Shown piece by piece: positions 3,075 to 14,709 of a DNA stretch of 45,581 nucleotides; position 1 is the first letter of the stretch, and every line of letters begins with the position of its first letter. Source of the DNA: Chitinispirillia bacterium (GTDB taxonomy: Bacteria > Fibrobacterota > Chitinivibrionia > Chitinivibrionales > Chitinispirillaceae); NCBI GenBank assembly GCA_009786415.1, contig WQTH01000005.1, positions 1-45,581 of the forward strand, in the 5' to 3' direction. Position numbers and translations under genes: made by a program. The notes under the pieces were generated by a model that saw only the letters and a program-made list of their open reading frames with translations, was not told where the DNA came from and made no database searches.

Positions 3075-4289
3075 TCAAAACACCACTTGCAGTACAACAA
3101 ACGCTATGGCCGCAACTATAACGCATATCACAACCGCTTTTTTCGCCGTAAACGGCGGCAGCGGGAGAAAAGAGGCCAGCCCCGACGGCGGTTTCGGTTT
3201 TCGCGGCGGCTGGGGGGCGGGCGCAGGGGCACTATTTACGTTTTTCAGCCTTTCCGTCGCCGCTGTTGCTATGCGGGAATCGGGGGGGCTGAGTTCTATT
3301 GCCGTTTCGTAATCAAGTATAGCTTTATCATACACTTCCTCTTTGTTATACGCGACGCCTCGGGCGAGATAGAGTTTAGCGTCCTCCGGGGTAATCCCTA
3401 TCGCCGCGTCGAAATCTTCTATTGCCATTTCGAACTCTTTTTTCCGCCCGTACGCAATGCCGCGCAAATAGTAGAGCGCCGCGTTATCGGGGGCTACCGC
3501 GAGCGCTTCGTTAAATGACGCCATTGCGCTGTCGAGATCATCGGCGTGCATATATGCCTTGCCGTGCATTACATGCGAATTGATATCGGGCGCCGCAATT
3601 CCGTTGGCGGCATGAGCCTCAAGAATATCTTTTTTTTCTAATCCCTTTACTACGTCAAGCGGGGTGCGGCCCAAATCGCATTTTACGTTAATATCCGCGC
3701 CTTGCGAAATAAGGTATTCCAAAACATCTATATTGGGGTTGCTCACAGCGGCGTGGTGCAGCGGCGTCCAGCCGTCGCTGTCTATCTCATTGACATTCGC
3801 GCCAACCCCCTCAATCAGCAGCTGCAGGTCATCTACAGTCCCGCTTTTGGCGGCCTCTATAATATTTATGGGATACCCCCCAAAAGATGCCCAGGGGTCT
3901 GCGGTATCAGGCGGGGTTTGAGCGGGCGGGGGCGGGACTGTTTTAGTACCCAAAGTACATCTGATGCGCGTAGGCTCTTCTACTTTCCAGTTGCCGTTCG
4001 GCAGGCGCTTAACTTTTCCTTTCTCCGTCGTTTTAATCTCTTTTATGCGGTCGCTCTTTTTCTTAGGAGGATTTTCCATGCTGCAAGCCGCCGGCTTTAT
4101 AAACTTGTCTACATCTTCAACCCACGCCATCACCTCTTTTGCAAGTTCGAAAACAGCTTCATCCTGCTTATCTGACGTATACACGAATTCATAATAAGAG
4201 ATACCCTCCTCGTACTCTTCGGAGTACTTGGTACCATTAAAAACGCCGTCGGCGCTCGGTACTGAAAGGTAAAAATTGTTAAATTTCAT
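3075..4289 (-). CDS. Tail-anchored ankyrin-TPR protein of the cytoskeletal cassette
   Basis: This 404-residue scaffold-like protein is last in the six-gene cassette, 15 nt after the coiled-coil gene. Residues 1-110 are a unique region. A Pro-rich linker (about 117-130) leads to two or three ankyrin repeats (about 138-232, including DGWTPLHHAAVSN and GRTPLDVVKG). Three TPR units follow (about 237-345, with ALYYLRGIAYGRKKEFEMAI and KLYLARGVAYNKEEVYDKAI). A second Pro-rich linker precedes a single C-terminal hydrophobic helix (about 384-404) that ends the protein. This arrangement predicts a tail-anchored protein with its repeats in the cytoplasm, probably docking partner proteins at the membrane. 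No enzymatic motif is seen, and the partners are unknown. Confidence 0.85.
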   Translation of the reverse strand: MKFNNFYLSVPSADGVFNGTKYSEEYEEGISYYEFVYTSDKQDEAVFELAKEVMAWVEDVDKFIKPAACSMENPPKKKSDRIKEIKTTEKGKVKRLPNGNWKVEEPTRIRCTLGTKTVPPPPAQTPPDTADPWASFGGYPINIIEAAKSGTVDDLQLLIEGVGANVNEIDSDGWTPLHHAAVSNPNIDVLEYLISQGADINVKCDLGRTPLDVVKGLEKKDILEAHAANGIAAPDINSHVMHGKAYMHADDLDSAMASFNEALAVAPDNAALYYLRGIAYGRKKEFEMAIEDFDAAIGITPEDAKLYLARGVAYNKEEVYDKAILDYETAIELSPPDSRIATAATERLKNVNSAPAPAPQPPRKPKPPSGLASFLPLPPFTAKKAVVICVIVAAIAFVVLQVVF

Positions 4290-4304
4290 CCACCTGTTTC
4301 CCCT

Positions 4305-4877
4305 TTAGGATATGCAATAATAGCGTATTTTAACTTTGTTTGTTATGCGCCATTTATCGCCCTCCAAAACAGCCTTGCCGCGCTCAATGGTCTCTACGCC
4401 GTTGTCTCTTTCGCCACACTGGTTCAACTGCTCGCAAAAGCTCTCCAAAGCGTCGGGGTTGCTGGAAAACTTTCTCACAACGCTATGTTTATCTACCACC
4501 GAAACGAAGGCTTCATTTTCATTGATTTTTTCGAAGCAATAGAGAGATATCCTGTCTAAAAACTCCGGCGAGGCGGTAGTTTTGAGAAAAACGCCCGCAG
4601 CCCCGTTGGCAAAGTAAAGGCACTCTTTTTTCGCCTCAACGGTATTTTGGCCGGAGTACTGCGGTTCCTGTCTTTCGATTGATGATACGGCAGGAGCATC
4701 ATATACGGGAGCCGATACGGCATCACCGCAGCTGCCGTTATCTCCGCCGGTGCCGGCCTCAAGGCGGGCGATTTTTTCTTCTATACACTGAACTCTTTTC
4801 TCCAACGCCTGAAAATACGTTCCGGCAGTGTTAAGGACTTTCAGGAAGTCTCCGGCGTTATTTGTTCCTTCAGCCAT
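4305..4877 (-). CDS. Small coiled-coil hypothetical protein of the cytoskeletal cassette
   Basis: I do not recognise the family. The product is about 190 residues. Residues 10-42 form a probable coiled coil (FLKVLNTAGTYFQALEKRV, then CIEEKIARLEAG). A low-complexity Ser/Ala-rich segment follows, and then an alpha/beta region (about 85-190) ending in VKIRYYCIS. The ATG at 4877 is preferred over the in-frame GTG at 4883 because AGGGGAG lies 7 nt upstream of it. The gene sits 12 nt after the stop of the actin-like gene and 15 nt before the ankyrin-TPR gene, so it is part of the same operon. It could be an adaptor for the large ATPase; this is inference from position and the coiled coil only. Confidence 0.75.
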   Translation of the reverse strand: MAEGTNNAGDFLKVLNTAGTYFQALEKRVQCIEEKIARLEAGTGGDNGSCGDAVSAPVYDAPAVSSIERQEPQYSGQNTVEAKKECLYFANGAAGVFLKTTASPEFLDRISLYCFEKINENEAFVSVVDKHSVVRKFSSNPDALESFCEQLNQCGERDNGVETIERGKAVLEGDKWRITNKVKIRYYCIS

Positions 4878-4889
4878 ATTCACGCTCCC

Positions 4890-7800
4890 CTATCTGGTCA
4901 TTTTCACGATTTGTTCCGACAACTCCAGAATAATGCTCTTTAACGGCATAAAGAAAGATGTTTCGGTAATTTCGTCGTTCACCGGCTGCCTTTCTTCATC
5001 TATGGGCTGGTTCCTGCCAATACTGTCTTTGAGCAGCCTATCAATAGATATTTTGCCGTTATTTTCATCGAGCGCGTTTTTCGCAAGCGCTGTTACGCTT
5101 TTGCTTATGCAGAAAAACTCCTCGAAAGAGTAGCTTTTATCGTCGTTGAGCTTAAAGAAAAATTTGTGAAAATCAACAAGTTCCCTCTTTATGCACTCAA
5201 GGCCATCCCGGTAGTCCGAGTATCTGAGCGATTTATCATACTCCCTGTCTTTTATGCAGGTATAGATTATGGAATCGGCGCTCTTGCTCTCTTTGCTGGC
5301 ATTTTCTATGTCTACTATGTTTGCCCTCAAACCGCCGTTGCAGGTAACCTCTTTGGGGTCTTTAACAAGAATAACCTCCAGATTCCTGTGTTCCAGACCA
5401 AGGTCTTTAAAGGCTTTTTGAGTAAAGTCATTAAGGTTCTCTTCGCTTCCGCCGCTCAAAATAGTCAACATTTTTGACGCGGTCCCGCTGAACATTAAAT
5501 ATTGCACGGCGATAGGTTTGCCGTCTTCCATCAAATTCTCGTGCTTTAATACCTTGGATATATGGTAGATCACGGCCATATAGAAATAAAGTATCAAAAA
5601 CTTCAAATCATCGCACTGGTGCAGCTGTTCGGTATAAGAGAGGTCGGCGCGCATCTTTCTGGATATATCTTTACCTTTTGCCCAAAAGTCTATGGATTTT
5701 TCTACGGAAAACAGAAAAGCGTTTATATCGGACGCTTTGGCCCTTTTGGGATTCCGCAAATCATTCAATATATCCCGCGGTTTGGGGTAGTCTTTAAGTT
5801 TGTCGGCAAAATAGTCGGCGAATCTGAGCACAAAGCCATTTTTGTCTGCGGCCTGCGCGGCATAGCCATCCCCGAAAAGAACGTCCCCCGCGAATTTGAA
5901 CGATGTCGTAGCCCTTAATTTCGCGTCCTGAAACACCGCGACGTCGGTTGTGCCGCCCCCTATATCTATGGATACTACCGCGCCGCCCAAAAAGTCTTTC
6001 TTGTCTTTTTCGGCAAAAAACGGCGCCAAAGACTCCCTGACCGAAACCAAATGGCCGCTCGGAACCCTCTCGCCCTTAAAAAAGTAGTCAGAAAAATAGG
6101 CATTCCACGTCTTTTCCAGCGTGGTTCTCTGCCCGCGGCCCATTGAACTGGGATAAAACCAAATTAAACGTGTCTCGCTCAATTTGCCGTTTTCAGACAA
6201 AACCTTAGCCTGTATAAGCATTATAATCTCTTCCAGATACGCGGCCATTTGCTTCCCCGCGTGTTCACTGCCGCTCCACTTAAGCGTGGTGGCTATGATA
6301 TTGCCGAATTGAGCGGTCTTTTCATAACCAAAGGGTATATTGCCCTCCTGCAGGGTATCCAGGCCGTCTCCGTCGTCCCAATCTTCATCGCGTATATCTT
6401 CATTATAGGCGATAGCAGTCCTTTGCGGGAATATGAAGATATTATCATCCTTACTGTCTCTCTTCCCGATCCGCCTCGGCACGAACTCTCTGTCTATCAA
6501 ATCTATTATGTTATCAGCGCCGCCGCCGCGTATGTTAAGCTCAGAGCCGGTTTCATCGTAAAGAGTGGCTATCGCGTCCCTCAGCTCAAACGCGCTGGGT
6601 TCGATATCTTCATTTACCTTGTACGCCACATAAGTGTTGGTATTCCCAAAATCCACCGCAAAGGTAAATTTGCTGGACCTGCTGTATGTAGGCCACTTGG
6701 GGACAATAAGCGCTTTTATATGCGGGTTGTTTATCTTGAGCTGAATAAGGTCAAATTCCCCCTTTATTTTATAATAATCCGAGGTGGAATCATACTTTTC
6801 GGTAGAATCCTTTTTATTAAAACGGCGCTTATAACCGGCGGAAAGGTTTTGCGTTACGGCATCCTGAGAGTAAAATTCAAGTTCATAATCCCGGTGCTGC
6901 AGATGCGCATCGGAATCTACAAGCTGTACGCGGTACTTAATATTAGCGTAATCGCCAACCTTTACAAACGGGAAGATGGTCGTCCCCACTTTTACATCTA
7001 CAATCATCCCGCCGTCGGGGCTTTTTTCATCAGGCGTCTGGTTCAAACCTCGGTTTTTATACGTCCTGTCAAATATTATATCTCCCTTGTAAGCCCTTTT
7101 CCCCTCTTTGTCAAGCGGGCCAACCGGAATTCTAAGCGTTACCTTAACATCGCCGTTGTTTTGGGGCGTTATGGCAAGCTTAGGCTTTTGCGGGTCGGTT
7201 TCGCCGTCCATCAGGTCTTTAATAGAAAAAAACCTGAAAAAATCTAAAGAGAGCGGCAGCATATAACCCTTAGAATCCTTATCCGCCCTGCAGCCTCCGG
7301 TATAAAAACGGTCTGATATGGGATAAAGCGTACGAACGATGTACGGCTCCAAAAAATCGCCAACAGTCAGGTAATACCCCTTTATATCTGAAAATCCGGG
7401 CATATCCCTCTTTTCCATAAACGGAGTATCCACCTTGGCCTCAACTGCAATAGACGGCATAAAAGATGTTGTTCTTAAATAAGCCCACCCCGTTTTCGAA
7501 AAGCCGTTTTGCAGCACCAGAGGGAGCCGCGTATCGGTATAATTTTTGCCCGCTTTTATAACGAAGTCGCTTTTTAGCAGGTCATCCTCTATGGCGCTCG
7601 GCTTTCCGACGCAAAGCCCAATGCCCAAAATGTCGACCGGGGTATTCCCGCCTCCGGTATTCAGCTGATAATATTCATTTTCGAAATCGGCAACCGTGGG
7701 CTTGCCGGCATAAATATCCGCAAACGTGTCGCTCTGTCTGAGGCTTTTTTCCGCATAATCAAACATGCAGCTTAAATTTTTCTTAACCGCGTCGGGAAGG

Positions 7801-8486
7801 TTAGACTTGCAAAGAGCAAGCAGGTAATAGAACCATCTTTGAAAATCGGGCGTACGCTTATACAGCGGCAAAGACTCTTCGCCAAAGGCCACGCGCCGTT
7901 CCGCCATGCACCTTATATCCAATTTGGAAAGATCCGCCGCGCTTGGGCAAAAAAGTGTAACCGGAGACGTGCACCCTATAACGTCTCTTCCGTATTTGAA
8001 TATGAAGATTTTCTTCATGTCGTCAAAATTATAAGTTTCCGCGTCCTGGCTCAAATAAAGGCTCAGCGATTCGGCGAAATCCCTGTGTTTTTTTGAGGAA
8101 CTTTTTTTAAGCTCATCTATGTGATTCGCGTCGCCGGACTTGCGCCATGTCAAGATTTCCAATTTGCCGCCGCGCGCCTGGCTGTCGAATATATATTCCG
8201 CCAAATCCAGAGTGTGCGAGACAATACGCTCGTCAAATTTGCCGGCTTTTATATCTTCGCCGCGGTCCGCTGTCAACTGCTCATTTTTTGTTATGTTTTT
8301 AAACGCCGTCTGAACCAGATCAAAGCGGGCAAAAGGGCTTGGAACAGCGGTTGGCATCTCCGTACGTTTGCCGCCGTCAGGGTCTTTTATTCTTTCAATC
8401 TGAAGTTCGTCATAGCCGGTCTCGCTGACCTGAAAAAAATCCGACTGCCCGTCTTTATCCGCATATTTGCCAAGTACATAGCTCAT
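4890..8486 (-). CDS. Large actin/Hsp70-like ATPase with a ~600-residue N-terminal extension
   Basis: The 1198-residue protein has a C-terminal actin/Hsp70-superfamily ATPase core. Phosphate-1 is AVDFGNTNTYVAYK (about 610-623), phosphate-2 is VSIDIGGGTTDVAVFQD (about 838-854) and the adenosine loop is YLMFSGTASKML (about 997-1008). All three key motifs look intact, so ATP binding is expected. Residues 1-600 resemble nothing I can name; they contain several alpha/beta-looking stretches but no signal peptide or membrane helix, so the protein should be cytoplasmic. Size and layout recall SrfB-type large actin-like proteins, but I cannot confirm that family. A GGAGGG site precedes the ATG, and the start overlaps the tubulin-like stop by 4 nt, implying translational coupling and matched dosage. 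It is distinct from FtsA and MreB. Confidence 0.85.
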   Translation of the reverse strand: MSYVLGKYADKDGQSDFFQVSETGYDELQIERIKDPDGGKRTEMPTAVPSPFARFDLVQTAFKNITKNEQLTADRGEDIKAGKFDERIVSHTLDLAEYIFDSQARGGKLEILTWRKSGDANHIDELKKSSSKKHRDFAESLSLYLSQDAETYNFDDMKKIFIFKYGRDVIGCTSPVTLFCPSAADLSKLDIRCMAERRVAFGEESLPLYKRTPDFQRWFYYLLALCKSNLPDAVKKNLSCMFDYAEKSLRQSDTFADIYAGKPTVADFENEYYQLNTGGGNTPVDILGIGLCVGKPSAIEDDLLKSDFVIKAGKNYTDTRLPLVLQNGFSKTGWAYLRTTSFMPSIAVEAKVDTPFMEKRDMPGFSDIKGYYLTVGDFLEPYIVRTLYPISDRFYTGGCRADKDSKGYMLPLSLDFFRFFSIKDLMDGETDPQKPKLAITPQNNGDVKVTLRIPVGPLDKEGKRAYKGDIIFDRTYKNRGLNQTPDEKSPDGGMIVDVKVGTTIFPFVKVGDYANIKYRVQLVDSDAHLQHRDYELEFYSQDAVTQNLSAGYKRRFNKKDSTEKYDSTSDYYKIKGEFDLIQLKINNPHIKALIVPKWPTYSRSSKFTFAVDFGNTNTYVAYKVNEDIEPSAFELRDAIATLYDETGSELNIRGGGADNIIDLIDREFVPRRIGKRDSKDDNIFIFPQRTAIAYNEDIRDEDWDDGDGLDTLQEGNIPFGYEKTAQFGNIIATTLKWSGSEHAGKQMAAYLEEIIMLIQAKVLSENGKLSETRLIWFYPSSMGRGQRTTLEKTWNAYFSDYFFKGERVPSGHLVSVRESLAPFFAEKDKKDFLGGAVVSIDIGGGTTDVAVFQDAKLRATTSFKFAGDVLFGDGYAAQAADKNGFVLRFADYFADKLKDYPKPRDILNDLRNPKRAKASDINAFLFSVEKSIDFWAKGKDISRKMRADLSYTEQLHQCDDLKFLILYFYMAVIYHISKVLKHENLMEDGKPIAVQYLMFSGTASKMLTILSGGSEENLNDFTQKAFKDLGLEHRNLEVILVKDPKEVTCNGGLRANIVDIENASKESKSADSIIYTCIKDREYDKSLRYSDYRDGLECIKRELVDFHKFFFKLNDDKSYSFEEFFCISKSVTALAKNALDENNGKISIDRLLKDSIGRNQPIDEERQPVNDEITETSFFMPLKSIILELSEQIVKMTR

Positions 8487-10063
8487 TTTTTCGGCCCTCC
8501 GGTTTTATCGTTTAGCCCGTATAGTTCGTCAAGAAGTTTGTGCGTGGCGCCATGAAATACATCCATCATCTTTTTCTCCGCGCTCCATGACTTCTTATCT
8601 TTAGCTAACATATTAAGAAATGTCTCAAGGTCCATATACGCAGGGGGTTTGGCCTTTGAAAAAAGCTTTGCGATGCCGGTTTTGGATTCTATATCTACGC
8701 CTTTTATAAAGGAGGCCAAATCGGCATTATCAGCCAGATTAAAAGGCGCGAAACCGCGGTTGTTATCATGCAATTCTACGAGCCATTCATGGAAATCGTC
8801 AAAAAACCTCTTCAAGTTGTCCCTATAAAAACCGTCTGTCAGGAAGCTGTCGTCTACCTCCGGCGGCTCCTTTTTCCACTCTCTTTTTTTGCCGCGGTAC
8901 TCCTCTTCCATATACTTCCTGAACAGGGCGAATTGAGAAAGTGGCATTGCCATAAGCCGTTGGGTTTCTGTTTTAAAATCAAAAAAGGTCGGGTTCGCAG
9001 TGTTCTCCTGAATGCTGAACTCATTGCAAACAGGGTATTTCGCCCTGCCTACGGCATTATCTCCGTCGGTATTTATTTCGCATTCTAAGCGATGATCATT
9101 CGCCGGTATGCTCAAAAAGTTTATAAGCGCAAGCGCTCCGGCCAATTCCACAAAGTGCGATTTGTTTTTTTGGCCGCCGTAACCGGGATCGTTATTATAG
9201 CTGTTTCCCGGATTGTCGCCAAGATAATACATTACGTTTACGGATTTGTTGCCGGTTACGTTTTTTCCGTAGTAATAGAGGGCGCTTTTGGTTTTTGCTA
9301 TAAAATCGGAGTAATTTATGGCGCTGTCGTCATTTTTTTCCAGTTTAAAATAGGGTAAAACGGAAACCGCGCCTATCTTTGCGGTTTTAAGGTTTATGGA
9401 AGCGTCGCCCTTGCCATCGCGGATATTCTTCAGCAGGCACGGGAAGCCCGCCGCTCCGGTACCGCCGAAAATGGAGGATATTATGAAAATGCGGTCATCG
9501 TTCTCCGGCTTAAAATTGCGCGCGAAAGCGTCAAAAATTTCAGATTCCACAATCTGGTTGAGCACCACGCTGCCCACATTGGGATTACCGACAAAACCGA
9601 TATCCATCTGTATGTCCAATAAATCGCAGTCTTCCCCGTTCTTGTTTTTTGTACTGCCGGAAAAGAGCAGCTCGGCAAGGGCCGCGTTTTCAGCGCCCAT
9701 ATTTCCGTGGTCGATATAGTCTCTGAACTTGTCTCCAGACCCGCTCAATCTGAACGTAAAGGTAGTTGTCGTGTCGGATTTATCGGGATCGCCGGATTTT
9801 AAATCTTCAAGCGTGTAGATTTTTGTCGGGAAAAAACCATTGGGATCGGAAATCTTTTTAACGTTCTTGTACCAATCCAGCATACGCACGGTTCTCTGCA
9901 AGTCTTCATTGCCGTAATGCGGGTCTATTATTATGGGAATAATATCAAAGTTGTTCTTTTCAGGCTTCACTCCGGACGCCAGCAAATGGGTTAAGGAGCG
10001 AAGCACCCTTGATCCGGTGCCGCCTATGGCAAAAACAAAACATTTCGGATTATTTTTCGACAT
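8483..10063 (-). CDS. Divergent tubulin/FtsZ-like GTPase
   Basis: The 526-residue protein has a tubulin-superfamily GTPase layout. The N-terminal nucleotide loop is FAIGGTGSRVLRSL (about residues 11-24), and the G-box signature is SSIFGGTGAAGFP (about 196-208), matching the GGGTG(S/T)G motif of FtsZ/tubulin with one change. Between them lie strand-rich segments such as FDIIPIIIDPHY, where tubulins place the acidic base-binding loop. The C-terminal half (about 300-526) is unlike FtsZ and contains helical segments. It fits the 'tubulin-like' (Tubulin_2 / FtsZ-like) families known from comparative genomics, which are proposed to remodel membranes; the function is unproven. TAGGAGGG precedes the start. 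The 4-nt overlap with the actin-like gene links the two NTPases. It coexists with a normal ftsZ at 29630-30976. Confidence 0.87.
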   Translation of the reverse strand: MSKNNPKCFVFAIGGTGSRVLRSLTHLLASGVKPEKNNFDIIPIIIDPHYGNEDLQRTVRMLDWYKNVKKISDPNGFFPTKIYTLEDLKSGDPDKSDTTTTFTFRLSGSGDKFRDYIDHGNMGAENAALAELLFSGSTKNKNGEDCDLLDIQMDIGFVGNPNVGSVVLNQIVESEIFDAFARNFKPENDDRIFIISSIFGGTGAAGFPCLLKNIRDGKGDASINLKTAKIGAVSVLPYFKLEKNDDSAINYSDFIAKTKSALYYYGKNVTGNKSVNVMYYLGDNPGNSYNNDPGYGGQKNKSHFVELAGALALINFLSIPANDHRLECEINTDGDNAVGRAKYPVCNEFSIQENTANPTFFDFKTETQRLMAMPLSQFALFRKYMEEEYRGKKREWKKEPPEVDDSFLTDGFYRDNLKRFFDDFHEWLVELHDNNRGFAPFNLADNADLASFIKGVDIESKTGIAKLFSKAKPPAYMDLETFLNMLAKDKKSWSAEKKMMDVFHGATHKLLDELYGLNDKTGGPKK

Positions 10064-10075
10064 AAACGCTCCCTC

Positions 10076-10552
10076 CTAACGCGGAATGGGGGTTGTATTG
10101 TAACAGTTCTTGCTCAATCTGCGCAAAAGCGGCGGCCAGCTCAAAATGGTAAATACAATAAAGCCAAAAATGCCGTTAACAAAAGCAAACATCCCAACTT
10201 CAGAGTAGTTAAAAATCACACTGATAAACTCCTCGTCACACCCATACGCATCCGCCCCGCCGCCCAAAAGCCCCCACAGCCTTATGAACGCGAAGGCGAA
10301 GTTAAAAACAAACGCGGAAGAGGCGAATATCCACCACCACTTGCATCCGTTAAAATTGACCCTGTCAATAATATGGTACTGCAAAACGTAAATAAACGCG
10401 GAACTTATAAGCATCACAAGGCCAAAAGATGTATACAGCGGCACACTGGTGTACGGGTCGGCGCAAAGGTCTTCTATGCCAGCAAGAAAGGCGGCCATGT
10501 TGTCTGAAAAAAACGGGTTCAGACCGAAGAGTTCGTAAATGTCACGAAACAT
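10076..10552 (-). CDS. Three-helix integral membrane protein of the cytoskeletal cassette
   Basis: No family is recognised. The 158-residue product has about three hydrophobic helices: roughly residues 40-60 (SFGLVMLISSAFIYVLQY), 73-92 (WWWIFASSAFVFNFAFAFIR) and 117-138 (VGMFAFVNGIFGFIVFTILS). An N-terminal region without a signal sequence precedes them, and a short basic tail (LLRRLSKN) follows. Three cysteines (29, 70 and 104) could matter if exported loops form disulfides. GGAGAAATAAAA precedes the ATG. The gene lies 2 nt behind the lipoprotein gene and 12 nt before the tubulin-like GTPase. This places it as a probable inner-membrane link between the external lipoprotein and the cytoplasmic NTPases; that role is inference. 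Confidence 0.8.
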   Translation of the reverse strand: MFRDIYELFGLNPFFSDNMAAFLAGIEDLCADPYTSVPLYTSFGLVMLISSAFIYVLQYHIIDRVNFNGCKWWWIFASSAFVFNFAFAFIRLWGLLGGGADAYGCDEEFISVIFNYSEVGMFAFVNGIFGFIVFTILSWPPLLRRLSKNCYNTTPIPR

Positions 10553-10554
10553 TT

Positions 10555-12078
10555 TTATTTCTCCAACTGTATATTAAGGTTAATCGTTTGCAGCGTATGG
10601 CGCTCATCCATGGAAATGGTCGGGTAGAAAGCTGAATACACCCCTCCCACTATATGCAAAAGCCCAAAAGTCTTGCTTTGTTCGGATACGTCATTCCTTA
10701 TCCGGGAGTCGTCTATGGAATTAACCTCTTTAACCCACGCGGGTATCCTGCCCATAACGGAGACCTTTACATCGCCCGACGTTACCCTTTCGGCAGTCAG
10801 GGAGATGCGGTGCTTGAAGTTTTTGGGCGGGCGGGCGTTTACGGTTAATTCGTAACCCTTAACGTGGTAATTGCCGGTATCGGCAAAGTACGCTGAATCC
10901 CTGAACGCGTCGTTAAAGTTCGCTTCCATTGTAAAATGGTAATTTGAGTTTCTTTTGGCCCTTTGCGCCTTGATTGAGCGGGTTTTATTATCAAACGAGT
11001 AGTTTTCCGACGCCACAATCCTGACCTCCGGATGCTTCTCCGCGGAAGCAGACTCAAAAATAAACCTCTCGCCCGTGAACCCGTTGCTGCTTAAAGTTAC
11101 AAACATCCTTTCATTTCTGGCTATTTGGGTCAGATGCAGAGGCGAACCTATGAACCATATATAGTAGGGCCTTTGGGCGACAAGCCTGCCCACGTTATCA
11201 CTCTTGCAGTTCCAGTAATTCCCGTCAAATTCGGACTCCATCTTCAATGCCAGCACCGCCAGATCCAACTCATCCGTTTTACGGGCGAACTTGACCCTTA
11301 TGCTGTTCCTCTGCTTTTCCAGATACTCGGCAACGTTTACCCCCTTGCCCGGACTGAAGATAAAATCGGCGGCCAAAACGGCTACGTTGTTTTTGTTTAC
11401 CGTTTCAAGGACGTGCCCGAAAATTACATCGAAGTCGGTGGTGCCGGTGTTGCCGCCGTTTTTCCTGCCGAACTCCATAAATTGATTGCGGTCTATCTTG
11501 TAGATGAAACTGTTCGCCGCGTCGAGATTGTCGTCTTTGACCGAATGGCTCACTTTCACGTTTACGTGGTTAAGGGTTATATCGCTGCCACGGAAACCGG
11601 ACTTCAAGTCTGCCAGAAGCCCGAAAAGGGCGTCCTGAAACTGGCTTTTGGGCTTTATATAACCGTTCATGTTGGCCGTATTCTTCACGAAAAAATTTAT
11701 ATTAAACCGCTCGGAAATTGGATCCATAACGCTGCGCCTGTCCTGCGTTATGCCGTTCCCCTCCAAAGTCCGGCAGATATGGTTAGCGATGGAATCCGTA
11801 TTTACCCGGCCTTCGGCGTCCTTCCATTTGGCCACGCGGGGATTTTTTGACTCGGAAACCCAATTTTTAAGGGAATCTATGTCTTCTTTGCTCAAAAAGC
11901 CGTCATTTTGGCGCAAATTCAGGATAGCATCGTTAAAAGGCTTCAGGGTGCCGGCGGATGACGCCTCTTTCTTATCGCCGCCGCAGCCGGCAAAGGCCAA
12001 CATGGAGAACGCCGCCAGCGCGGAAACGAGTTTCACGGGCGACAGCCAAATTCTGGCGCGAATTCTGCACTTGCTCAA
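10555..12078 (-). CDS. vWA-fold lipoprotein with degenerate MIDAS, first gene of the cassette
   Basis: This lipoprotein has the export segment KLVSALAAFSMLAFAGC, with the lipidated Cys at residue 32 of the start used here. Residues 120-310 look like a von Willebrand factor A fold: strand FNINFFV, then NTANMNGYIKPKSQFQDAL at the MIDAS position, TTDFDVIFGHVLE, and strand NNVAVLAADFIFSPG. The DxSxS motif is replaced by Lys-Asn-Thr-Ala-Asn, so metal binding may be lost. Residues 320-507 are beta-rich. I chose the TTG at 12078 because AGGGAGG lies 8 nt upstream and the signal peptide then has normal length; an in-frame ATG at 12111 lacks such a site. It heads the operon and is the only member expected outside the cytoplasmic membrane. 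Confidence 0.78.
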   Translation of the reverse strand: MSKCRIRARIWLSPVKLVSALAAFSMLAFAGCGGDKKEASSAGTLKPFNDAILNLRQNDGFLSKEDIDSLKNWVSESKNPRVAKWKDAEGRVNTDSIANHICRTLEGNGITQDRRSVMDPISERFNINFFVKNTANMNGYIKPKSQFQDALFGLLADLKSGFRGSDITLNHVNVKVSHSVKDDNLDAANSFIYKIDRNQFMEFGRKNGGNTGTTDFDVIFGHVLETVNKNNVAVLAADFIFSPGKGVNVAEYLEKQRNSIRVKFARKTDELDLAVLALKMESEFDGNYWNCKSDNVGRLVAQRPYYIWFIGSPLHLTQIARNERMFVTLSSNGFTGERFIFESASAEKHPEVRIVASENYSFDNKTRSIKAQRAKRNSNYHFTMEANFNDAFRDSAYFADTGNYHVKGYELTVNARPPKNFKHRISLTAERVTSGDVKVSVMGRIPAWVKEVNSIDDSRIRNDVSEQSKTFGLLHIVGGVYSAFYPTISMDERHTLQTINLNIQLEK

Positions 12079-12211
12079 AATCCAAACCTCCCTCGCTATT
12101 GCTGTTAGCATAGCAACCCGTTGCGAATACTTAGCATACAGCTAAGGCAGTGCCGTACCCCCAAAAAGCGATATTTTCAAGAGCCCAGCACACACCCCAA
12201 ACCGTATCAAT

Positions 12212-12249
12212 TATACTATATTATAGTATACGAACATAACGAAAAACAA
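12212..12249 (-). promoter_or_regulatory. Promoter and palindromic operator of the cytoskeletal cassette
   Basis: On the minus strand, TTGTTT (12244-12249) and TATAAT (12220-12225) are separated by 18 nt, a good sigma-70-type promoter pointing into the lipoprotein gene. The -10 lies inside the perfect inverted repeat TATACTATA-T-TATAGTATA (12212-12230). A protein bound there would block the promoter, so the palindrome is a candidate operator. The predicted leader to the TTG start is about 130 nt. The remaining gap to 12361 holds a GC-rich imperfect hairpin near 12337-12356, just past the propeller gene. Confidence 0.6.
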
Positions 12250-12361: not shown

Positions 12362-14629
12362 TCAGGGTTTAAGTATAATCTTGGTCCTCTTGCCCGACGG
12401 TTTGGCGACCGCAATATACGTTCCCGGCGCCAATCCGCGCCGCGGGGTCCAAATAGCCCGCCACTCATCCTCATTGAACCGCTGCGCGTCGGCCTTTGCC
12501 ACGAGCGCCCCGTTTACCGTGTAGACTGCCACGGAGGCGCGTTGCTCGAGTCCCTCGAACGTTATATGCTTTGCGCCGCGCTGGCTGCCTCCCACCGAAA
12601 ACACGTTGGGAAACGCGCGCAGCTCTTTACGGGATGCGGCTTTGCGCCCGCGGCCCACGTCCAAGTACGATATGCCCTCGTCGGTTACTATCCACAGACG
12701 TCCGCCCGCTCTGTCTAACGCGATGGAGAGCACCTCGTTAGACGGCAATCCGGACGACTCGTTGATCCACCTGCGCTCGTTAGTATTGAGGTCGAACCGC
12801 AAAATACCGTCCGTTACGGTGCTCAACCACAGCACGCTGCCCCTTACGGCCAAACTTGTGATGTTGGTGAGCGTACTGTCTACAGCCTCCGTCCTCACCG
12901 CGCCGCGCGCGACCCTCCGCAGACCGTTCGAGGCGGCTATATAAGTCGTACCGTCTTCCCCCGTTACAATTGCCTTGACTTCGCCGTAGTTGGGGAATGT
13001 GGCGTTTATTGTTATCCCGTTGGCCAGCGGGTTACCGTCATGGCTGAAGATTGTGAGGCCATTCTCTTTGTCGTAAGCGAATATCCTGCCGTCCGCATCT
13101 ACATTAAGCGCCGTTATGTTTTCGACCTTGTAAGGGGCCTCGGTGAAAAAGCGCCTGTAGCGGGCCCGCATTGGCTCGTGCTCAAGCGATAAGACCGGGT
13201 CGTAGCGCGGATCATAACAGAGGAGGCTGCCGTAGTCGCTACCCCATATAGAAACCCAAAGGTACCCGGAGGAGTCCCGCGCCAACGCGTCGGACTTGCC
13301 CCAAATAATGTATCCGGCGCTGTTTCGGATGTAGGCTATATCGCGGAAATCGGCATACCCTATTGCCAGCTGCCCCACCGTATTTCTAACCGGGTCTATA
13401 TGCTTTACGTTGCCTCCGCTCGTACCCGCCCAAAACGAGCCATCACTCCAAACGGCCCCCCCAAGCGCGGCTGCGTCGCCGACGTATCCGAACTGGTCCC
13501 GGTAGGTAACGTTATTGTACAGATGCCACCGCGAGCCGTCGAACCGGTAAATCCCGTTATGCCACTGTATGTTCAGGTGCGACGCCATAGGCAGGAACCA
13601 AACGTTGCCGTCGTTAGCGGAGAAAACGCGCGAGGCCCGCCGCAGCGTCATGCCGGTTTCCTCTATACGGTGCTGCACCGGCGGGAAATACAATCCCCCT
13701 TCGCCCATCTCGCCTGCCCATGAGTAATAAAAGCCTTCAAGAGACCCAATCCAAAGCCGCCTGTCGCCCTCGTTAAAAAGCTTCTGTATAGTGCCCCACG
13801 GCGTAATCCGCGCCCCGGGGAAACGCCTGCCGCCGTGCGTAAGCCACCCGCTGTCGGCGGCCGCTATCACATACCCAAAAAAATCGGCCGCAGGCGTGGA
13901 ATGAGCCGACAGGGTGTCGCCGGCGCGCACAAACGCCTGCACGGAGAGCGTGTCGCCGGAACGGACAACCCCCTTCACGGGATTGGTACGCCCGGTTTTC
14001 CAAATACCGGGATCGTAAAAATTCCGCTGGGATAGCGGGACTATATCCAAACTGTCCAAATAAGCGACCCCATCTTCGCATCCGAGCAGGAGCATACTCC
14101 CGTAAACATCTATCGTATTAACCCGCTGATTGGTGAAGTTAGCGATCCGCGCGGCGTTGCGCACGGCTACGCCCTTGACCGGGTCAAAGAGGCTTACCCC
14201 CTTGATAGTCCCTACGACAATCAATCCATCATGGCTATACAGGGAGGTGATGCCCCAGTCGGATATCTTATAGTTGGAGTATGTGGTAAACCGCCCTCGC
14301 GGCGTCATCCGGTAGAGGTACCCCTTGCGCGAGCCAATCCAGATGTTCCCATCGTCGTCGCGGCAGAGCGAGGTCAGATGGAGGTCGGGGAATATGCGGC
14401 TGTTGGCGAACATCTCGTGGGCGGCGGTATCTTTGAAATTGTGGAGACGAAGGCCCCCGCTCGTAGCCACCCACATAGTATCGCCCCACTTCAGGAAGTC
14501 GTTGGCGGTAACCGGAGAGCTGTAGCTGGTGATGTTTTCGGACGCAAAAAGAACCGGCGAGCAGCAAACGAGCGCCGCCAGAACGGTCTTGACGAGAATG
14601 TTTGTCTCAGGCTTAATCGGTATCTTCAT
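12362..14629 (-). CDS. Secreted two-component-regulator-type beta-propeller protein with C-terminal sorting-like domain
   Basis: The product is about 755 residues with signal peptide MKIPIKPETNILVKTVLAAL followed by a hydrophobic stretch ending in FASE. Repeated blade motifs of the Reg_prop type fill most of the protein (DDDGNIWIGSRKGYLYRM, DGLIVVGTIKGVSLFD, DSSGYLWVSIWGS, VRGSVLWLSTVTDGILRFD, RAGGRLWIVTDEGISYLD). The last 85 residues form a beta domain (VAVYTVNGALVAKA, LAPGTYIAVAKPSGKRTKIILKP) resembling the C-terminal type-A sorting domains of T9SS substrates. No histidine kinase or response-regulator domain follows, so this is probably an exported binding protein rather than a signalling kinase. 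I prefer the ATG at 14629 for its signal peptide; an in-frame ATG at 14671 is possible. The ligand is unknown. Confidence 0.85.
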   Translation of the reverse strand: MKIPIKPETNILVKTVLAALVCCSPVLFASENITSYSSPVTANDFLKWGDTMWVATSGGLRLHNFKDTAAHEMFANSRIFPDLHLTSLCRDDDGNIWIGSRKGYLYRMTPRGRFTTYSNYKISDWGITSLYSHDGLIVVGTIKGVSLFDPVKGVAVRNAARIANFTNQRVNTIDVYGSMLLLGCEDGVAYLDSLDIVPLSQRNFYDPGIWKTGRTNPVKGVVRSGDTLSVQAFVRAGDTLSAHSTPAADFFGYVIAAADSGWLTHGGRRFPGARITPWGTIQKLFNEGDRRLWIGSLEGFYYSWAGEMGEGGLYFPPVQHRIEETGMTLRRASRVFSANDGNVWFLPMASHLNIQWHNGIYRFDGSRWHLYNNVTYRDQFGYVGDAAALGGAVWSDGSFWAGTSGGNVKHIDPVRNTVGQLAIGYADFRDIAYIRNSAGYIIWGKSDALARDSSGYLWVSIWGSDYGSLLCYDPRYDPVLSLEHEPMRARYRRFFTEAPYKVENITALNVDADGRIFAYDKENGLTIFSHDGNPLANGITINATFPNYGEVKAIVTGEDGTTYIAASNGLRRVARGAVRTEAVDSTLTNITSLAVRGSVLWLSTVTDGILRFDLNTNERRWINESSGLPSNEVLSIALDRAGGRLWIVTDEGISYLDVGRGRKAASRKELRAFPNVFSVGGSQRGAKHITFEGLEQRASVAVYTVNGALVAKADAQRFNEDEWRAIWTPRRGLAPGTYIAVAKPSGKRTKIILKP

Positions 14630-14709
14630 AGTTAATAAAAATATATTATGTCCCGCTAATATAAAAATCAATACCTTAAAATATTGTTTTGACCTTTAAC
14701 CCGAATTCC

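Follow-up and report, generated by a model that had tools for sequence, protein, structure and literature searches.

A stretch of 45,581 nts from a Chitinispirillia bacterium (contig WQTH01000005.1, positions 1 to 45,581; hereafter the window) carries on its minus strand, between 12111 and 3075, an operon whose core pairs a predicted tubulin/FtsZ-like GTPase with a giant actin/Hsp70-type ATPase, preceded by a lipoprotein and a membrane protein. We consider the chance about even that this operon encodes one envelope-spanning nucleoside triphosphatase (NTPase) machine, most likely serving in defence against foreign DNA at the envelope.

Open reading frame (ORF) analysis located six genes in a row, separated from gene 1 to gene 6 by 2, 12, -4, 6 and 15 nts; these coordinates bear out a preliminary description of this DNA, which had given six consecutive minus-strand genes with gaps of 2-15 nts or a 4-nt overlap. 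All features of the operon given below lie on the minus strand. Gene 1 (10555-12111) encodes an envelope lipoprotein of 518 amino acids and gene 2 (10076-10552) an integral membrane protein of 158 amino acids that matches no known family and whose three hydrophobic segments are 3 predicted transmembrane segments. They are followed by the tubulin/FtsZ-like GTPase (gene 3, 8483-10063, 526 amino acids) and the putative actin/Hsp70-type ATPase (gene 4, 4890-8486, 1198 amino acids), by a protein of 192 amino acids with a coiled-coil-like N-terminus and a C-terminal small domain (gene 5, 4305-4883), and by a protein of 404 amino acids combining the small domain with ankyrin repeats, tetratricopeptide repeats (TPRs) and a C-terminal transmembrane segment (gene 6, 3075-4289). 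The lipoprotein, the protein with three transmembrane segments, the tubulin G-box, the three actin motifs of the 1198-residue protein and the tail-anchored ankyrin-TPR protein announced in the preliminary description were all found. The 5' end had been placed wrongly at 12249, which sits in the upstream region: the first in-frame start codon of gene 1 is at 12111, and none lies upstream of it. Scans of proteins 1-5 against Pfam, NCBIfam and PADLOC returned no family above cut-off.

The gene set is conserved in other genomes. One further genome of the genus, that of a second species (G005), contains all six genes, with 69-88% identity. A different Fibrobacterota family and a Prevotella record hold distant relatives (~25-38% by BLAST), arranged as lipoprotein, membrane protein, tubulin-like protein and actin-like protein; no membrane-protein gene was called in the Prevotella case. 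When one genome was scanned for each species, at least 567 relatives of gene 3 were confirmed, mostly in Bacteroidota and also in records titled Kapaibacterium, Leptospiraceae and Thermochlorobacter; 80 of these were kept. The mapped set comprised 84 loci and the window; its members were picked for their similarity to gene 3, and Spirosoma and Prevotella are strongly represented. Its recurrent order is a lipoprotein, a protein with 3-4 transmembrane segments, the tubulin-like protein, an actin-like protein of 1100-1200 amino acids and a small-domain protein. Gene 3 is present in the 84 loci (that of L095 failed automatic mapping) and gene 4 in 83; counted from gene 3, the lipoprotein lies at position -2 in 71 of the 79 loci that have it, the membrane protein at -1 in 69 of 70 and the small-domain protein at +2 in 64 of 68. 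Pairwise distances among the three large proteins were correlated over 72 loci with r = 0.98, 0.93 and 0.93, permutations giving at most 0.18. In a second sample, which took 295 genomes evenly from across one class, there were 15 matches, of which 14 were examined; the core order was kept in 13, a MotA-like gene was present in 7, and L152 has a lone gene 3. L154-L156, the most distant of the loci, still have lipoprotein-sized and small membrane-type genes upstream of genes 3 and 4. The check on conservation set by the preliminary description thus came out in its favour, the core being kept across phyla. The gene set is beyond what chance would give, in view of the recurrence of all six genes in a second species, the presence of the core in different phyla and the invariance of the nucleotide-binding motifs (see below).

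Structure prediction places gene 3 in the FtsZ/tubulin fold. An N-terminal glycine loop of T1 type, IGGTGSRV (10004-10027), and the tubulin signature loop of T4 type, FGGTGAAG (residues 199-206, 9446-9469), were identified in an alignment of 52 sequences, in which G14, G15, T16, G17, R19 and V20 of the first and F199-A204 and G206 of the second are invariant. The AlphaFold2 model based on this alignment has a pTM of 0.91, and every PDB hit listed by Foldseek is an FtsZ, a CetZ or a tubulin (best E 2.5e-5, probability 1.0), in agreement with the tubulin core that the preliminary description expected of the predicted fold. The corresponding TM-scores are low (0.25/0.40), and therefore the GTPase half appears to match while the remainder diverges. 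A single-sequence phmmer search of the PDB with gene 3 gave no usable match. The Tubulin_2 family (PF13809) scored 20.6 bits, below its curated cut-off of 27, and matched 4 of 6 diverse members of the gene 3 family at E < 1.

Gene 4, judged from its nucleotide motifs together with weak profile matches, probably falls in the actin/Hsp70 ATPase superfamily. The motifs lie in its C-terminal half and comprise phosphate-1 DFGNTNT (residues 612-618, 6633-6653), phosphate-2 DIGGGTTD (residues 841-848, 5943-5966) and adenosine FSGTASK (residues 999-1005, 5472-5492); D612, G614, T618, D841, G843, G844, D848, S1000, G1001 and S1004 are invariant in 39 aligned sequences. Profile matches to FtsA, MreB and Hsp70 are weak (E 0.01-1), the FtsA profile reaching 21.6 bits, below cut-off, and a single-sequence phmmer search of the PDB gave weak FtsA matches. 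SrfB, FtsA, MreB and Hsp70 share the actin-type nucleotide-binding motifs but no full-length similarity with gene 4, whose N-terminal region of ~600 amino acids matches no family. An identity with SrfB (PF07520) was rejected, as the match scored 10.4 bits against a cut-off of 27.1 and covered only 18 residues at the phosphate-2 motif. The self-contained membrane machine of the preliminary description stands as an envelope module whose parts (two NTPases of cytoskeletal type, a transmembrane protein and a lipoprotein) are inherited together. The SrfB-type families to which that description had pointed do not include the actin-like protein, as no full-length profile match was obtained. The combination of a tubulin fold with actin motifs also fits a bacterial cytoskeleton, with membrane-tethered filaments acting in shape, division or gliding. 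We regard this as improbable: beyond the presumed helix H7 of gene 3, visual inspection revealed no T7 catalytic loop of the NxDxxD type, the actin-like protein carries its long N-terminal region, the operon is missing from most relatives in the same genus or class, and the effector and motor partners described below would be left unexplained.

The gene 1 product carries a lipobox, LAFAGC, with the cysteine at residue 43 (11983-11985), and weakly resembles a von Willebrand factor A (vWA) domain in its predicted structure. In the AlphaFold2 model (pTM 0.80), structure comparison delimits a vWA-like core at about residues 137-300 (11212-11703); the top Foldseek neighbours are mostly vWA or vWA-like folds, all of them weak (E >= 0.015, none <= 0.001). 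No Pfam vWA match was obtained among 52 members of the gene 1 family. A motif tally found ExSxSM and (S/T)D at the vWA metal-site positions in most relatives, and the site resembling a metal-ion-dependent adhesion site (MIDAS) is degenerate in the window copy (FFVKNTANM).

Genes 5 and 6 share a domain of ~105 amino acids, located at the C-terminus of gene 5, downstream of its coiled-coil-like stretch, and at the N-terminus of gene 6 (residues 5-110, E = 2e-15). The domain is also present in other genes of the operons, for example in one MotA-like protein, and was matched by 76 of the 1265 proteins scanned, all of them operon genes; as the model was built from gene 5 relatives, only matches outside that group are independent. 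Gene 6 further contains ankyrin repeats (residues 144-212) and TPRs (~236-341), both above Pfam cut-offs, and a hydrophobic segment near its C-terminus (374-392) that is predicted to be transmembrane. In the sister species, gene 6 (L003:1390-3993) has a repeat-rich extension of ~460 amino acids beyond the transmembrane segment, which the window copy lacks.

Relatives of the operon carry additional, optional genes. A MotA/TolQ-type gene is present in 27 and a MotB/OmpA-type gene in 22 of the 84 loci; Pfam matches above cut-off include MotA_ExbB (27.1 bits, L032) and OmpA (31.8 bits, L031), and examples compared with PADLOC matched ZorA2 (E = 7.8e-10) and ZorB1 (E = 2.3e-15). In the Prevotella versions a zinc-ribbon membrane protein takes the place of the motor (24 loci). 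Downstream genes encode enzymes above Pfam cut-offs (retropepsin-like, trypsin, staphylococcal nuclease (SNase), DNA/RNA endonuclease and caspase families), many of which are predicted lipoproteins. The pattern S-G-x(0-2)-[RKH], counted where it falls at most 12 residues from the lipobox cysteine, was present in 18 of 37 downstream lipoproteins compared to 1 of 109 other predicted lipoproteins of the same loci (Fisher 6e-12, a value that is too small because the pattern was noticed before counting and many of the proteins are homologous); the occurrence of this tag in three unrelated enzyme folds is a sturdier point than the p-value. Sequences of the CSxSGRR/CNxxSGxRK type follow the lipidated cysteine in L036, L037, L040-L043, L053-L056, L064, L080, L145 and L150. 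The tag is possibly a new signal for lipoprotein sorting or recruitment. As a separate observation, the last gene of L096 (Flavobacterium akiainvivens), a short way downstream of a motor-type operon, encodes 1097 amino acids that look Cas9-like by eye. The preliminary description did not cover the resemblance of the lipoprotein to vWA, the small domain shared by genes 5 and 6, the optional motor of Zorya type and the tagged lipoprotein enzymes of relatives, or the accessory distribution described further below.

In the model we propose, the two NTPases would make up a nucleotide-switched assembly in the cytoplasm, beneath the inner membrane. Its link to the periplasmic vWA-like lipoprotein would be provided by the membrane protein, the small-domain proteins and, in operons that have one, a peptidoglycan-anchored ion motor. 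Entry of a phage or other DNA would disturb the envelope and trigger the assembly, whereupon lipoprotein nucleases and proteases would attack the invader; in the window version, the tail-anchored ankyrin/TPR protein of gene 6 might conceivably act as a local output or adaptor. Defence is put forward as the most likely role because of this proposed envelope trigger and the nuclease and protease outputs. The accessory distribution detailed below, to which the 15 matches among 295 genomes of the class sample belong, counts in its favour as well, as do the copies close to phage tail, methyltransferase and HsdM-like genes and the precedents of Kaur et al. and Zorya. The fuller version, in which a tubulin-like/actin-like switch of a new envelope immune machine controls, via the membrane protein and an optional Zorya-like motor, the vWA-like lipoprotein and nucleases and proteases recruited by a tag of the C-x-x-S-G-x-R/K type, is put forward tentatively. 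Several observations weigh against a defence role. The window operon contains neither a motor, the ZorA/ZorB pair being absent from it, nor enzyme effectors; the motor is missing from 57 of the 84 loci, and most Prevotella and Fibrobacterota versions have no enzyme effector. PADLOC assigned the five core proteins to no known defence family, the tag was seen before it was counted with homologues entering the count repeatedly, and in Spirosoma the operon was found in 36 of the 36 genomes searched, in a conserved slot where looked at.

This fixation in Spirosoma looks like a lasting cell function and favours the main rival explanation, a housekeeping envelope machine that would use its NTPases and membrane parts for envelope remodelling or for the sorting and export of lipoproteins, the tagged enzymes being its cargo and not weapons. 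We see this as a serious possibility that nonetheless falls short of probable. The Prevotella synteny looks vertical, with downstream genes in common, a single tag after the lipobox of unrelated enzymes resembles a sorting signal, and membrane remodelling has been proposed for vWA/OmpA/FtsZ-like operons (PMC2875224). Elsewhere, however, the distribution is patchy, the operon being present in 2 of 8 genomes of the window's genus and in 9 of 81 genomes of Mucilaginibacter (the genus of L041). Insertion sites differ between sister species: in G005 the site with the PorZ-like gene is without the operon, which lies on another contig adjoining a chemoreceptor-like gene. In Spirosoma itself, L157-L160 and L050-L065 carry two divergent versions of the whole operon in the same slot with the same flanking genes, only ~35% (gene 3) and ~27% (gene 4) identical, and in one genome there is an additional copy of motor type close to a gene that, by eye, resembles type I restriction HsdM, with insertion sequence (IS)-like genes. 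The nuclease outputs and a prophage-side copy also speak against housekeeping. Combined, these results show that transfer and replacement affect the operon as a unit, in the manner of a cassette.

On one viral contig (L162:815-8116) the five-gene core adjoins phage tail-fibre and DNA methyltransferase genes. A scan of viral contigs with the tubulin family matched three contigs, and one with an earlier two-sequence actin alignment matched none; phages or viral contigs as the main source were rejected, as no phage record matched and the viral contigs were limited to these three. The prophage-side copy and one relative whose record is classed as a plasmid are also what a plasmid or prophage DNA partition system of TubZ/ParM type would predict, as is a weak match to the phage partition family phrog_691 (24.9 bits). 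We rejected this explanation as very unlikely, since the phrog_691 match is confined to 32 residues of the phosphate-2 region, a DNA-binding partner is absent, the lipoprotein and membrane genes are nearly always linked, and copies are mostly chromosomal.

Several known systems resemble the operon in part. Makarova and Koonin described FtsZ-like/vWA operons in 2010 (PMC2875224), without this actin partner, and a 2023 survey (PMC9871819) set the Tubulin_2 group aside. These FtsZl1 (Tubulin_2) systems likewise combine a divergent FtsZ/tubulin GTPase with membrane proteins and, in some cases, proteins of the OmpA family; they also have a vWA-type protein, to which the weakly vWA-like lipoprotein of the present operon may correspond. 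In contrast, no P-loop GTPase or protein kinase was identified here, the long coiled coil after the GTPase domain is absent from the gene 3 model (helices of its C-terminal half are at most ~23 residues), the giant actin-like ATPase is adjacent in nearly all loci, and the Tubulin_2 score stays below cut-off. Kaur et al. 2020 (PMC7159879) predicted conflict systems that are similarly NTPase-based, with tubulin, Hsp70-fold and vWA parts, transmembrane segments and protease effectors. In those Firmicutes and Actinobacteria systems, tubulin and HSP70 fall into different themes centred on DO-GTPase/GAP1, whereas the present operon has one fixed tubulin and actin-like core, mainly in Bacteroidota, with no DO-GTPase or GAP1 among the operon proteins scanned. 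Zorya (PMC11890865) offers a precedent for a peptidoglycan-anchored motor sensing phage entry; about a third of the relatives have a ZorA/ZorB-like motor pair and several have nucleases, but the motor is optional here and the enzymes are predicted lipoproteins. PADLOC found no ZorC, ZorD or ZorE among the six proteins of the window, its scan of relatives covering few downstream proteins. No published description of a tubulin-like and actin-like envelope cassette was found in the literature searched, whose coverage excluded subscription papers and preprints, and the cassette is probably undescribed. It locks a tubulin-fold and an actin-type protein together at hundreds of loci, including those of gut and oral Prevotella, and joins three threads: orphan FtsZ-like proteins, NTP-dependent conflict systems and Zorya-type motors. 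The role of divergent FtsZ-like proteins, a long-standing question, becomes directly testable because pairs with and without the operon, natural exchanges of versions within a single slot, the tag and clear nucleotide-binding residues are available.

Upstream of gene 1, a palindrome on the minus strand, ATACTATAATATAGTAT (12213-12229), may from its sequence be an operator or a -10 region. Further upstream, 12362-14671 encodes a PorZ-like protein (NCBIfam T9SS_PorZ, 61.6 bits, cut-off 260) present in 8 of 8 genomes of the genus. On the other side, 142 nts downstream of the operon and on the same strand, 2030-2932 encodes a nuclease of the PD-(D/E)XK transposase/Rpn family (Pfam PDDEXK_2, 58 bits); it was dropped as a candidate nuclease effector of the operon, as it is missing from that place in G005. 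The small secreted protein encoded at 1077-1892 has an N-terminal region and a C-terminal hydrophobic segment that recur genus-wide in many copies and in varied combinations.

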